20,456 nt of DNA, taken from positions 1-20,456 of the IMG/VR virus record IMGVR_UViG_3300031539_000391; one strand, 5' to 3'. Positions 10,674 to 20,428 of the stretch are shown one piece after another (position 1 is the first letter of the stretch; every line of letters starts with the position of its first letter). The translations under genes and the position numbers were made by a program. The notes under the pieces are model-generated. The model saw only the letters and a program-made list of their open reading frames with translations. It did no database searches and was not told the DNA's origin. The DNA is from a virus.

Positions 10674-11096
10674 ATGAATAATAATTATGAAGACATTGGT
10701 AAGGCACTCAACATTGAGAGTAGCATAGTTGAGGTGGAGAAATCTATAGAGAAAGTTGATATTGTACCATCAAAACCTGATGATATTAGGAAGGACTATG
10801 AATATACAAGAGCAAATCTATATTCATTAATTGAGAAAGGTCAAGAAGCAATTAATGGAATTATGGAACTTGCTGGCGAAGGTGGAAGTCCTAGGGCATA
10901 TGAGGTTGCTGGACAATTAATTAAGAGTGTTGCAGATACAACTGATAAATTAATCGATTTGCAGAAGAAACTGAAGGATGTTCAAGAAGATACTGTCAAA
11001 TCACCTAGCAGTGTGACTAATAATGCTTTGTTTGTTGGTTCAACATCAGAACTTTCAAAAATACTCAAACAAGGTTTTCTAAATAGTAAAGATTAG
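10674..11096 (+). CDS. 16: Terminase small subunit gp16
   Basis: The product (140 residues, T4 gp16 has 164) is helix-rich. It has a short acidic N-terminus, then YEYTRANLYSLIEKGQEAI and an AGEGGSPRAYEVAGQLIKS segment, then a coiled-coil-like run (TTDKLIDLQKKLKDVQED), which matches T4-like small terminase subunits. In T4, gp16 forms a ring that regulates recognition of DNA and the ATPase and nuclease of gp17. The C-terminal tail (NNALFVGSTSELSKILKQG) is what I recall from cyanophage gp16. The gene lies after gp15 as in T4. Unlike T4, another gene separates it from gp17. There is no clear Shine-Dalgarno. Confidence 0.85.
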   Translation: MNNNYEDIGKALNIESSIVEVEKSIEKVDIVPSKPDDIRKDYEYTRANLYSLIEKGQEAINGIMELAGEGGSPRAYEVAGQLIKSVADTTDKLIDLQKKLKDVQEDTVKSPSSVTNNALFVGSTSELSKILKQGFLNSKD

Positions 11097-11108: not shown

Positions 11109-12824
11109 ATGAACGAGCAACTGAAATCATATAAAACTGTAGAGCAGATTGCGAAAAAACATCGTATGGATGTCTCAGATATTCAGAAGCAACTTGATAT
11201 GGGTGCTCCTATTGAACACGAGCACACAAACAATCAAAAACTTGCTGTTGAGATTGCATTGCAGCATTTAGATGAAATCCCAGACTATTATACTCGTTTA
11301 AAGAAAATGGAAGCAGATGCTAAAAAGCATCATAAAAAGTTTAAGGATGTGAGAATTAATGAGGAAGGTCTTCGTGACTGGTTTGGAAAATCTAGATCTA
11401 AAGAAGGCAAACCTGGTTGGGTAAATGCTGTTACAGGTGGAACTTGTGCTAGTGATGAACCTGGAGAAGGAACTCCAAAATGTGTATCTTCAGCAAAAAG
11501 AGAAAGTATGACTAAATTGCAAAGATTATCTGCAACAAGAAGGAAAAAAGAAGCGGATCCTGGGCAACAAGAAAAATCTGGTGCTGCAAAACCAACCTAT
11601 GTTTCAACAGATTCAAAGGAAAAAATGAAAGAAGAAATGAATCTCCAAGAAGTAAAAGATAAACCGGGAAAAGGTAGTGGTAAAAAGGATGCTTGTTATA
11701 CTAAAGTAAAATCTCGTTACGATGTTTGGCCAAGTGCATATGCTTCTGGGGCACTTACAAAATGTCGTAAGGTTGGTGCGGCAAATTGGGGAACTAAATC
11801 TGAAGAATGTTGGAATGGTTATAAGCAAGAAGGTATGAAAAAGAAAGGTAAGAAAATGGTTCCAAATTGCGTTCCTGTATCCGAAAATGCCGATGCATTT
11901 GATTATGATTGGCATACCCCAGTTCGTGAAAGAGCAGATAGATATTGCCCAAAATGTGAAAAACTTGAGACAAGAAACGAATGTAAATACGGTCCAAGAT
12001 ATTGGGATATGTTTTCTTTACCTGCAGAGTTAATTAGTTCAAAGAAAGATTATAATACCACAATGCCACATCCAGCAAATGAGGAGAAGGACTACGAGTA
12101 TTCAATGGCTCGATCCGAACTTAGCACCATTATGAATGCTGCTAGAAGACTGAAGAAAAAAATGAAAGGTGAGGGTAATATTGAAGCCTGGGTCCAGTCA
12201 AAGATCACAAAGGCAGCAGACTATATTGATACCGCAGCAGATTATATTGATAGTGGAGAAAGTAAGGTTAATGAGGATGTGACAATTGAAGATGCAAATG
12301 GCAATACCTTTCTTCAGATTATTGATATTATCAAAGCAGACCGTCTTGTAAAAGAGGGGATTAGTTTTGATGTTGGAAAACCTTCTAGAGGTGCTGGTGC
12401 GTTAACTCCATCTGCTGCTGCACAACTTGGACCAAAAGCAGTTGAGTTACAAAAGAAAAAAGCTGCTTCGGTAAGTCTTCCAAGTACCGCTGGTGTTAAA
12501 CTTGCAGATTCTTATAAATTAAAATCATTTGACGAATTTATGTCGGAAGCATCACCTGCTTGGCAGAGAAAAGAGGGAAAGAATTCTGAGGGCGGTCTAA
12601 ATAAAAAAGGAATTGCTTCTTACCGCAAAGAGAATCCTGGATCAAACCTCTCACTTGCGGTTACGACAGAACCTTCCAAATTAAAAAAAGGATCAAAATC
12701 AGCAAATCGCAGAAAGTCATTTTGTTCCCGTATGAGTGGAATGAAAAAGAAACTGACATCAGCAAAAACTGCAAATGATCCAGATTCAAGAATCAATAAA
12801 TCATTAAGAAAGTGGAATTGTTAG
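11109..12824 (+). CDS. Mosaic multi-domain basic protein between gp16 and gp17
   Basis: The 571 residues read as several small modules. Residues 1-70 contain EHTNNQKLAVEIALQHL and PDYYTRLKKME, as in DUF5661. Residues about 97-170 contain KPGWVNAVTGGTCASDEPGE and RRKKEADPGQQEKSGAAKPT, as in DUF5872. Residues about 186-258 contain KKDACYTKVKSRYDVWPSAY, GALTKCRKVGAANWG and KKMVPNCVP. A CPKC pair (C280, C283) with C292 could bind zinc. Residues 330-382 are helical (AWVQSKITKAADYIDTAADY). Residues about 484-571 contain WQRKEGKNSEGGLNKKGIAS and end SRINKSLRKWNC, as in DUF6321. Just before it, residues 472-481 (KSFDEFMSEA) resemble the T4 capsid-targeting leader. The domain names are from memory. 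The protein is rich in Lys and probably binds nucleic acid or enters the head; the function is unknown. It is not a T4 gene at this position. Confidence 0.8.
   Translation: MNEQLKSYKTVEQIAKKHRMDVSDIQKQLDMGAPIEHEHTNNQKLAVEIALQHLDEIPDYYTRLKKMEADAKKHHKKFKDVRINEEGLRDWFGKSRSKEGKPGWVNAVTGGTCASDEPGEGTPKCVSSAKRESMTKLQRLSATRRKKEADPGQQEKSGAAKPTYVSTDSKEKMKEEMNLQEVKDKPGKGSGKKDACYTKVKSRYDVWPSAYASGALTKCRKVGAANWGTKSEECWNGYKQEGMKKKGKKMVPNCVPVSENADAFDYDWHTPVRERADRYCPKCEKLETRNECKYGPRYWDMFSLPAELISSKKDYNTTMPHPANEEKDYEYSMARSELSTIMNAARRLKKKMKGEGNIEAWVQSKITKAADYIDTAADYIDSGESKVNEDVTIEDANGNTFLQIIDIIKADRLVKEGISFDVGKPSRGAGALTPSAAAQLGPKAVELQKKKAASVSLPSTAGVKLADSYKLKSFDEFMSEASPAWQRKEGKNSEGGLNKKGIASYRKENPGSNLSLAVTTEPSKLKKGSKSANRRKSFCSRMSGMKKKLTSAKTANDPDSRINKSLRKWNC
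12519..12551 (+). other. Capsid-targeting-like peptide with a candidate gp21 cleavage site, internal to the mosaic protein
   Basis: Residues 471-481, LKSFDEFMSEA, align without gaps to the N-terminal MKTYQEFIAEA of T4 internal proteins, which targets them into the prohead and is cut after the second last residue shown (Glu) by gp21. K, E, F, E and A are identical, and S/T, F/Y and M/I are conservative. Here the first residue is Leu (TTA) where a free-standing protein would have Met. Cleavage after E480 is inferred, since the usual T4 site is (L/I)xE and here it is MSE. Confidence 0.45.
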
Positions 12825-12825
12825 T

Positions 12826-14478
12826 ATGCCGAATAATGATATCTATCTTGGTAATCCTCTGCTTAAGAGGGCAAATACCCAGATTGAATTTACAGAAGAA
12901 CAAATCTATGAATTTTTAAAGTGCAAAGAAGATCCCGTATATTTTGCACGTAATTACATTAAGATTGTTACTCTCGACCACGGACTACAACCTTTTAGAA
13001 TGTATCCGTTTCAAGAGAAGTTAATTAGCAATTTCCACGAGCACAGATTTAATATTTGTAAGATGCCTCGTCAGACAGGTAAATCTACAACTTGCGTCTC
13101 ATATCTATTACATTATGCAGTCTTTAATGATAATGTAAATATTGCTGTTCTTGCGAACAAGGCATCTACTGCAAGAGATCTTCTTCAAAGATTACAACTT
13201 GCTTATGAGAACTTACCCAAGTGGATGCAGCAGGGTGTGATATCCTGGAACAAAGGTTCTTTGGAACTTGAGAATGGTTCCAAAATATCATCAAACTCTA
13301 CATCATCATCTGCCGTTCGTGGTGGATCATACAACATCATCTTCCTGGACGAATTTGCGTTCATTCCAAATCATATTGCCGATGACTTCTTTGCGTCGGT
13401 TTATCCCACAATTTCTTCTGGTCAAAGCACAAAGGTCATTATTGTTTCTACCCCTCGTGGTATGAATCACTTCTACCGTATGTGGCACGACTCTGAGAAG
13501 GGTAAGAACGCATATGTGGCTACAGACGTTCATTGGTCCGAAGTGCCTGGTAGAGACGAAGAATGGAAGCAGCAGACGATTGCAAACACCAGTGAGCAGC
13601 AGTTTAAGGTTGAATTTGAGTGCGAATTTTTAGGTTCTGTAAACACACTTATTAATCCGGCAAAACTACGAAATCTTGTCTATGAAGATCCGATTAAGAG
13701 AAATGCTGGATTGGATGTTTATGAGGAAGCAAAGGAAGAAAATAACTATCTAATCACAGTTGATGTTGCAAGAGGAATTGGTAATGATTACTCAGCATTT
13801 ATTGTTTATGATATTACAAATTTCCCATATAAAGTTGTAGCAAAGTATAGGAATAATGAAATCAAACCGATGATGTTCCCAAGCGTCATTCATCAAGTAG
13901 CAAAGGGTTACAATGAAGCCTGGTTATTGGTTGAGGTCAATGATATTGGTGACCAGGTTGCGAGCATTCTACAATATGATCTTGAGTATGATAATGTGTT
14001 GATGTGTGCGATGAGAGGTCGTGCTGGGCAGATTGTTGGTTCTGGTTTCTCTGGTAAGAAGTCACAACTTGGAGTCAGAACAACTGCGGCAGTCAAAAAA
14101 TTAGGATGTTCAAATTTAAAGACCTTATTAGAGGATGATAAATTACTTGTATGTGATTATGATATCATCGCAGAACTCACAACATTTGCTCAAAGGGGCA
14201 ATTCATTTGAGGCAGAGGAAGGTTGTAACGATGACCTTGCAATGTGCCTGGTTATATTCTCTTGGTTAGTCGCACAAGACTATTTCAAGGAAATGACGGA
14301 TAACGATGTCCGTAAGAGAATTTATGAAGAACAAAAGAATCAAATTGACCAAGATATGGCTCCATTTGGATTTATCTCTGATGGTATTGATGAAATGACC
14401 AGTTTTGTAGATGAATCTGGGGATAGATGGTACACTGATGAATACGGTGATCGTTCTTATATGTGGGACTACCTGTAA
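12826..14478 (+). CDS. 17: Terminase large subunit gp17 (packaging ATPase and nuclease)
   Basis: The product (550 residues, T4 gp17 has 610) has all parts of the T4-type packaging motor. The ATPase domain carries a Walker A-like PRQTGKST (residues 81-88, with M80 before it), Walker B IIFLDEF (171-177, D175 and catalytic E176) and the coupling motif VSTPRGMNHFY (207-217). The nuclease domain carries ITVDVARGIGNDYS (D313), LLVEVNDIGD (E370) and CNDDLA (D469/D470), the usual acidic triad of the RNase H-like fold. It hydrolyses ATP to translocate DNA through the portal gp20 and cuts the concatemer. It starts 1 base after the mosaic gene. The C-terminal tail (after about 520) is acidic and aromatic (YTDEYGDRSYMWDYL). 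No key residue is missing. Confidence 0.95.
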   Translation: MPNNDIYLGNPLLKRANTQIEFTEEQIYEFLKCKEDPVYFARNYIKIVTLDHGLQPFRMYPFQEKLISNFHEHRFNICKMPRQTGKSTTCVSYLLHYAVFNDNVNIAVLANKASTARDLLQRLQLAYENLPKWMQQGVISWNKGSLELENGSKISSNSTSSSAVRGGSYNIIFLDEFAFIPNHIADDFFASVYPTISSGQSTKVIIVSTPRGMNHFYRMWHDSEKGKNAYVATDVHWSEVPGRDEEWKQQTIANTSEQQFKVEFECEFLGSVNTLINPAKLRNLVYEDPIKRNAGLDVYEEAKEENNYLITVDVARGIGNDYSAFIVYDITNFPYKVVAKYRNNEIKPMMFPSVIHQVAKGYNEAWLLVEVNDIGDQVASILQYDLEYDNVLMCAMRGRAGQIVGSGFSGKKSQLGVRTTAAVKKLGCSNLKTLLEDDKLLVCDYDIIAELTTFAQRGNSFEAEEGCNDDLAMCLVIFSWLVAQDYFKEMTDNDVRKRIYEEQKNQIDQDMAPFGFISDGIDEMTSFVDESGDRWYTDEYGDRSYMWDYL

Positions 14479-19225: not shown

Positions 19226-19773
19226 TGACAGTACATAAACCCGTTGGTTTTGGTAGTTCTATTGCAATTACTTCTGGAGCTGCTACAACTTCATCTACGT
19301 TGTCAGTTCAGACTAAGGCACTAAGAGTTGTTGCAACTGCTGGAGCCTTTATTGCAATTGGAACAAATCCAACAGCATCATCAACAGATTATTATGTTCC
19401 TGCAGGCGGAACTGCAGTTCTTGCATTGAGTCCAGCATCACAAAGAATTGTTGGAATTATAACAGGAACAACAACCACAATCACATTTCCAGATGGAACG
19501 GGATCTCCATTTGTAGTTGGGGATTATGTAACTTTAACTTCAGTAGGACAACCATATTACAATTTTACCCATCAACCTGTTACAGCAGTTGATGCATCAA
19601 GTGGAGTTGGTGGATACTATTCAACCAGAATTACTGTATCTACTAGCACATCGGGGATTGTAACTGCATTTTCTACTGATGGGGACTTGAGAGATTCCAT
19701 AAAGATTTCGGCATATGGAACCGGAGCAGGAGCTTTATATTATCAACAAGTTCAAATTGCTGGAGACGCATAA
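19225..19773 (+). CDS. Beta-rich probable head or virion protein, 182 residues
   Basis: The gene lies between the gp67-like and gp21 genes, the place of gene 68 in T4, but shows no resemblance to a helical core protein. It is Thr/Ser/Gly/Val-rich with alternating strands: HKPVGFGSSIAITSGAATTS, then TKALRVVATAGAFIAIGTNP, then TTTTITFPDGTGSPFVVGDY, then STRITVSTSTSGIVTAF, ending LYYQQVQIAGDA. I recall similar unnamed proteins in this slot in T4-like cyanophages. Context suggests a head-associated structural or decoration protein produced together with scaffold genes. No signal peptide, membrane segment or catalytic motif is visible. Confidence that it is a real gene is high; the function is unknown. 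Confidence 0.8.
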   Translation: MTVHKPVGFGSSIAITSGAATTSSTLSVQTKALRVVATAGAFIAIGTNPTASSTDYYVPAGGTAVLALSPASQRIVGIITGTTTTITFPDGTGSPFVVGDYVTLTSVGQPYYNFTHQPVTAVDASSGVGGYYSTRITVSTSTSGIVTAFSTDGDLRDSIKISAYGTGAGALYYQQVQIAGDA

Positions 19774-19777
19774 ACAA

Positions 19778-20428
19778 ATGAAACTCATCACAGAAGAAGT
19801 ATCACAGGTTAAGTTCATCACCGAAGGAAAAGGTGCTGAAAAGAAAATGTATATTGAAGGAGTTTTCCTTCAAGGTGATATCTGCAATCGTAACGGCAGA
19901 ATGTATCCAATGCAAACTCTTGCAAAAGAAGTAGCAAGATACAATGAGTCATTTGTTTCCAAAGGTCGTGCTCTTGGAGAACTCGGTCACCCTGATGGTC
20001 CTACCGTCAATCTTGATCGTGTCTCTCATAAAATTGTTTCTCTTGAACAAAAAGGATGCAATTTTATCGGTAAGGCACAACTTCTAGAAACTCCAATGGG
20101 TAAGATTGCAAAATCACTTATTGGTGAAGGAGTTATGCTTGGTGTTTCTTCTCGTGGTGTTGGTTCATTAAAGATGACTAATGAAGGTCATAAAATTGTC
20201 GGTGAAGATTTCATGTTAGCAACTGCTGCTGATATCGTTGCCGACCCTTCTGCTCCTGATGCTTTTGTTCAAGGAATTATGGAAGGTAAAGAGTGGGTTT
20301 GGGAAGGAGGAATTCTTCGTGAAAGACTCGCTGAGCAAACTAAGCGTAGAATTAATACCTTAGTAGATGATAGAACACTTCAAGAACATAAAGTTGAATT
20401 GTTCCAAGATTTTCTATCAAATCTATAA
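19778..20428 (+). CDS. 21: Prohead core scaffold protease gp21
   Basis: The start at 19778 gives 216 residues (T4 gp21 has 212); the frame stays open to ATG 19715, but that would overlap the preceding gene by 59 bases and add residues with no family counterpart. The body shows YIEGVFLQGDICNRNGRMYP, GRALGELGHPDGPTVNLDRV and LIGEGVMLGVSSRGVGSLKM, typical of the T4-type (family S78) serine protease. H71 and S124 or S125 are the likely catalytic His and Ser. It cuts the scaffold and other head proteins in the prohead at (L/I)xE sites and then itself. Two candidate self-cleavage sites, ITE at residues 4-6 and 14-16, lie at its own N-terminus. Confidence 0.93.
   Translation: MKLITEEVSQVKFITEGKGAEKKMYIEGVFLQGDICNRNGRMYPMQTLAKEVARYNESFVSKGRALGELGHPDGPTVNLDRVSHKIVSLEQKGCNFIGKAQLLETPMGKIAKSLIGEGVMLGVSSRGVGSLKMTNEGHKIVGEDFMLATAADIVADPSAPDAFVQGIMEGKEWVWEGGILRERLAEQTKRRINTLVDDRTLQEHKVELFQDFLSNL

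Follow-up and report, generated by a model that had tools for sequence, protein, structure and literature searches.

The gene at positions 11109..12824 (+ strand) of the window, the stretch of 20,456 nucleotides analysed here, is best explained as encoding a head cargo polyprotein that is cut between its modules by the head protease gp21, its pieces probably being delivered at infection (probability roughly 0.74). From this single gene, a set of ready-to-inject proteins is probably loaded into the particle. A marine T4-like cyanomyovirus is the source of this fragment, in which gp14, gp15, gp16, the gene under study, gp17, gp18, gp19, gp20 and gp21 follow one another, the names being taken from gene order and the annotation of homologues. 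The terminase subunits gp16 (small, 10674..11096, +) and gp17 (large, 12826..14478, +), assigned by position and homologue annotation, flank the gene, and the proposed cutter gp21 is encoded in the same phage at 19715..20428 (+; Pfam Peptidase_S77, E 3e-36). The gp21 frame as listed is probably about 21 codons too long; its true start is likely near 19778, where MKLITEEVSQVKFITEG agrees with the start seen in homologues.

Homologous stretches were found in 512 phage records, chiefly of Synechococcus and Prochlorococcus phages, with syntenic homologues of the gene in S-SRM01, S-CREM2, P-HM1 and ACG-2014a. In the examples read, relatives sit in or beside the gp16-gp17 gap, which is among the Synechococcus-phage gene hot-spots in Sullivan et al. 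(PMC3037559), and most of the relatives listed are annotated just as hypothetical. In S-SRM01 (L002, 12830-16791), the 'tail sheath' and 'terminase large subunit' labels look interchanged from the order and lengths of the genes.

The 571-residue product, read in one frame, is a mosaic of modules, all coordinates of which refer to the + strand. Only two modules exceed the Pfam cut-offs, namely DUF5661 at residues 12-68 (11142..11312; PF18905, E 7e-15; pLDDT about 90) and the strongly basic DUF6321 at residues 482-571 (12552..12821; PF19846, E 1e-18, profile match 490-569, 67.9 bits against a curated cut-off of 28.5). Between them lie a DUF5872-like module (about residues 86-150, 11364..11558), which relatives carry at the N-terminus or internally and which falls below the Pfam threshold here, a KDACY module (about 186-231, 11664..11801) with 125 distinct occurrences, some of them free-standing, and a CW..VPNCV module (about 234-259, 11808..11885), which ends at the edge of the low-confidence segment 260-272 in the predicted site VSE/N (257-259; the slash marks the predicted cut here and below). 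A YCPKC cysteine module (about 279-312, 11943..12044), ordered in the structure model, and a helical YEYSMARSEL module (about 325-383, 12081..12257), modelled as two long helices, are both conserved in the alignment; they are followed by a VTIEDANGN module (12276..12356) ending in the predicted site VKE/G (414-416), kept in 33/37 orthologues, and by a disordered linker (417-470, 12357..12518; pLDDT about 30). Within the helical module, a 21-base short tandem repeat (12213-12252) encodes AADYIDTAADYIDS.

The sequence-only reading had seen unlike, basic modules in one frame. Of these, DUF5661 and DUF6321 are recognised by Pfam, and many phage proteins contain KDACY or CW..VPNCV as a unit of its own; the DUF5872 module named there has no Pfam match in the protein, a DUF5872 protein appearing among the weaker matches in a viral structure library (E 5e-3). 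The basic character holds for the DUF6321 fragment (481-571, pI 10.6) and fails for fragments 260-389 and 390-416, which are acidic (pI 5.5 and 4.4) assuming cuts at the predicted sites. A PHROGs search of the protein returned only families of unknown function, the PDB held no sequence relative of the modules, and Foldseek against the PDB gave nothing meaningful for DUF6321 or for the full model, whose domains are placed relative to each other with low confidence (pTM 0.29).

The signature of gp21 is L/I-x-E (PMC9026906), and the exposed junctions of the protein carry it, relaxed to Val and Met at P3. The same signature occurs in cyanophage major capsid proteins, which read LTE/A and LAE/A where a T4-type cut is expected. 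Candidate sites include INE/E (residues 83-85, 11355..11363) in the low-confidence linker 78-86, at a junction kind enriched in sites before the DUF5872-like module; LQE/V (179-181, 11643..11651) in the linker 176-193, a position holding a site in 30/37 orthologues; and VNE/D (387-389, 12267..12275) in the linker 385-393, where the exact place has a site in just 14/37. All the sites listed in the sequence-only reading are present, and the segments holding INE(83-85) and LQE(179-181) have pLDDT values under 50. LDE(54-56) was rejected, since it lies inside a confidently folded DUF5661 helix (pLDDT about 91), where a cut is implausible; VSE(257-259), VNE(387-389) and VKE(414-416) had been overlooked. 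The lowest-confidence segments of the model are 78-86, 176-193, 260-272, 385-393 and 401-471, and INE85, LQE181, VSE259, VNE389 and VKE416 are modelled inside or beside them, so that the predicted cuts would fall mostly in disordered linkers.

Just before DUF6321 lies LKSFDEFMSEA (residues 471-481, 12519..12551), present as first reported, with the codon TTA at 12519 for Leu471. Its predicted cut, MSE/A after residue 480, keeps its position in 35/37 orthologues. In the leader of T4 internal proteins, residues 4 and 7 act chiefly in targeting and residues 8 and 10 in processing (PMC9026906); these four positions are kept in cyanophage leaders, and LKSFDEFMSE fits the T4 rule (aromatic at 4 and 7, hydrophobic at 8, Glu at 10). 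The pattern [FYL]xxF[ILVM]xE[AS] arose in 0.12% of shuffles of the protein. The N-terminus itself, MNEQLKSYKTVEQ, has no leader. Met478 (ATG at 12540), considered as an internal start for a separate DUF6321 protein, has no obvious Shine-Dalgarno sequence upstream.

In the relatives S-CREM1_179, L173, L176 and L180, the leader is N-terminal. The cultured T4-like cyanophage S-CREM1 (Kyanoviridae) has, in its terS-terL gap, a free-standing DUF6321 gene that starts with MKTYNDFITEVAAWQRKEG and reads MKTYNDFITEVAAWQRKEGKN..., or, with the predicted cut, MKTYNDFITE/VAAWQRKEG.... Environmental contigs, too short to tell what type of phage they come from, also carry leader-bearing free-standing DUF6321 (MITLKEFIVEVAAW, MLTFQEFITEATPAW, MLSFSEFIVEAAPAW and MKSFKQFLEESAAW), with junctions such as MITLKEFIVE/VAAW, MLTFQEFITE/ATPAW, MLSFSEFIVE/AAPAW and MKSFKQFLEE/SAAW. 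Relatives of the N-terminal part also bear an N-terminal leader; one form, in T4-like loci, starts with MKTFQEFILEA, after which come DUF5661, DUF5872-like and KDACY-like modules. The search for free-standing homologues with an N-terminal leader, proposed with the sequence-only reading, thus found the forms whose absence would have spoken against that reading. The C-terminal DUF6321 unit would derive from a formerly independent gene whose product bore a T4-type capsid-targeting leader; the internal leader may still act, or may persist only as a cut site that came with the fused gene. A further family of about 105 residues, MKSFKQFISESVNIAGDFNG..., with a near-perfect T4-type leader, often adjoins or follows the polyprotein gene (L002 11196-11504, L003 10359-10679, L316 897-1226 and about 20 other loci) and is absent from the window.

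A survey of DUF6321 gave 172 distinct occurrences, comprising 113 fused, 5 single with an adjoining leader and 54 others. A Glu at most 6 residues before the conserved DUF6321 Trp is present in 111/113 fused and 5/5 leader-bearing single copies and missing in 49/54 of the other free-standing copies; among the five exceptions, L098 and L128 at least begin with a leader and another module. P-SSM2, P-HM1, ACG-2014a, S-RSM4 and S-SRM01 all have the Glu. T4-like morphogenesis genes were found in 91/111 Glu-bearing fused loci against 1/49 Glu-less free copies, counted in the stretch at hand. Nearly all contigs compared for gp21 co-occurrence are fragments. In one sub-group of relatives, LHAE or LHTE precedes DUF6321, with a His at P3 that lies outside the strict motif.

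The DUF6321 relatives of the podophages P-SCSP1m, Ran and HTVC022P have neither leader nor Glu and lie beside capsid or scaffold genes; small free-standing DUF6321-type genes lie next to scaffold and capsid genes in podophage loci L308 (1459-1713), L309 (1471-1710) and L310 (1471-1689). This placement suggests a head role independent of gp21. It also speaks against the idea of a terminase accessory or a tail or exterior virion protein, for which the location between the terminase subunits and the annotation of the region's neighbours in another phage as tail fibres could be cited; given that the protein matches no terminase or tail family and that neighbouring and related genes bear head-targeting leaders, that idea has only a very slight chance of being right.

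The presence of [LIVM]xE was scored in the 22 residues before each module over non-redundant junctions, with composition-preserving shuffles as control. Sites precede DUF6321 at 59/71 junctions (shuffled mean 31.7, max 41), KDACY at 45/53 (mean 23.8, max 34), CW at 73/82 (mean 36.2, max 46) and the DUF5872-like module at 45/49 (mean 12.8, max 21). The last Glu has a hydrophobic P3 in 80% of DUF6321, 43% of KDACY, 84% of CW and 55% of DUF5872-like junctions, against a flat background of 24-26% hydrophobic residues around Glu in other S-CREM2 proteins; KDACY junctions are weaker than the other kinds. The protein might instead be a modular virion protein with flexible acidic linkers that is never processed, its Glu-rich sites being incidental; relatives are indeed virion proteins, and the linkers are disordered and rich in Glu. 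We regard this as improbable, because composition-preserving shuffles fail to give the sites, hydrophobic residues are enriched specifically at P3 while P2 is free, and leaderless copies lack the Glu where the phage or locus has no T4-like genes.

Another alternative, unlikely in our view but the one for which site conservation speaks, is a head-packaged protein trimmed once only, freeing DUF6321 and leaving the remaining junctions uncut: the E480 position is the best kept and others, such as E389, are less so. The CW, DUF5872-like and KDACY junctions are enriched in the same way, however, and N-terminal leaders also stand directly on CW, DUF5872-like and KDACY modules.

Since the 178 junction sites comprise 116 different DNA 9-mers, selection acts on the protein and not on the DNA; P2 is variable, and P3 uses all 14 Leu, Ile, Val and Met codons. 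Linkers as DNA recombination repeats were rejected for this codon diversity. The diversity argues as well against the view that leader and linkers are functionless scars of fusion or module shuffling through recombination at short shared DNA sequences, a view to which the strong mosaicism of the gp16-gp17 hot-spot, the existence of free-standing donors and the survival of leader-like segments at just 10/113 fused DUF6321 junctions lend something. Those ten internal leaders nevertheless keep F/L4, F/Y7, a hydrophobic residue at 8 and E10 amid differing flanks, and we consider mere scars very improbable.

Relatives of the protein have been detected in purified virions. In S-SCSM1, the homologue SSCSM1_29 carries a virion-protein annotation, and the paper on that phage reports mass spectrometry (MS) of CsCl-purified particles. 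In the published virion MS of S-CREM2, the syntenic homologue ORF137 is represented by only 4 peptides (4.1% coverage) and a second module protein, ORF160, by 7 peptides, data that separate neither whole from cut protein nor location in the particle. Together with the leader-bearing free-standing forms, these detections support the fused, packaged polyprotein of the sequence-only reading, in which one of four listed sites was wrong. In the literature covered, mainly main texts outside subscription journals, no capsid-targeting leader or head polyprotein is described for cyanophages, and the papers found there name neither DUF6321 nor DUF5661.

An N-terminal leader pattern, fixed beforehand on S-SCSM1, was then tested on S-CREM2, where it occurs in 5/41 MS-detected virion proteins against 1/156 others (P 0.0016); the pooled figures for both phages are 6/87 against 2/389 (P 0.0007), and the enrichment in S-SCSM1 taken alone is not significant. 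The bearers include a SAM hydrolase, an APH-like kinase, a cytidylyltransferase and the product of ORF136, a gene between terS and terL, and 5/6 cytidylyltransferases examined start with a leader. The S-CREM2 authors left open whether virion-detected enzymes are cargo or contaminants; several of these enzymes carry the leader. An MS-detected Cas9-like protein of S-CREM2 (OR473000, 7704-10313, minus strand) has a leader-like KPLRFASFMAEAA near residue 20, which suggests a packaged Cas9.

On the favoured reading of a gp21-cut cargo polyprotein, the protein would be made as a single chain and enter the prohead along with the scaffold, where gp21 would cut after the Glu of [L/I/V/M]-x-E between modules, the best candidates being E85, E181, E259, E389, E416 and E480. 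The small pieces would stay with the DNA and probably be delivered into the cyanobacterium at infection, perhaps for DNA binding or early anti-defence.

In kind, the protein is intermediate between the T4 internal proteins, gp22 with its multiple cuts, and the polyvalent proteins. T4 IPI-IPIII are likewise small packaged proteins cut by gp21, with a leader that has aromatic residues at 4 and 7, a hydrophobic one at 8 and Glu at 10 (PMC9026906); they come from separate genes, each with a single N-terminal leader and a single module, whereas the present chain holds several modules and has its leader inside. The T4 core proteins gp22 and gp67 are single chains with several L/I-x-E cuts by gp21 in the prohead (PMC9026906), but they serve as scaffold, most of their fragments are expelled, and they are not built as mosaics of recurring modules. 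The polyvalent proteins that phages and conjugative elements encode are multi-domain, delivered with the invading DNA, thought to be released as units and have been compared to RNA-virus polyproteins (PMC5512222). They have embedded peptidase domains and another domain set, whereas Pfam found no embedded peptidase or other listed polyvalent domain in the 571-residue protein, for which the cutter would be gp21 in trans. In the giant phages phiKZ and SPN3US, the prohead protease cuts head proteins after Glu in a short x-x-E motif, cargo is internal or ejected, and long propeptides are cut several times (PMC10052503); the motif there is A-x-E or S/A-x-E, and the cuts mainly remove propeptides instead of separating modules.

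More broadly, we lean slightly towards a combinatorial cargo in T4-like cyanophages, in which small interchangeable modules, set apart by head-protease sites, are exchanged as cassettes within one or a few polyprotein genes, and an N-terminal T4-type leader brings complete enzymes into the head (cytidylyltransferase, SAM hydrolase, kinase, perhaps Cas9). If so, virion cargo could be read straight from genome sequence, with the leader as a rule for predicting packaged proteins, and this gene family, one of the commonest mysteries of cyanophages, would be host-delivered cargo that the capsid protease releases from a polyprotein.

Several leader-bearing or module-type proteins carry a segment that imitates the arm of the capsid protein just past the capsid's own expected cut (capsid LLTE/APTQAVGADGFTGAAAPGGPNAGFDPVM), such as AGATGFTGAAAPEGPVAGYDPLM in S-CREM2 ORF160 (L306, 28342-29232) and SEQPTNSVGNGGYTRSADASGPVAGDD in L156 (1512-1961); further loci are S-SCSM1 93121-93306, L236 259-693, L205 1112-1546 and L252 3603-3956. 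From the likeness of these segments, it is as if the cargo would dock where the capsid arm binds.
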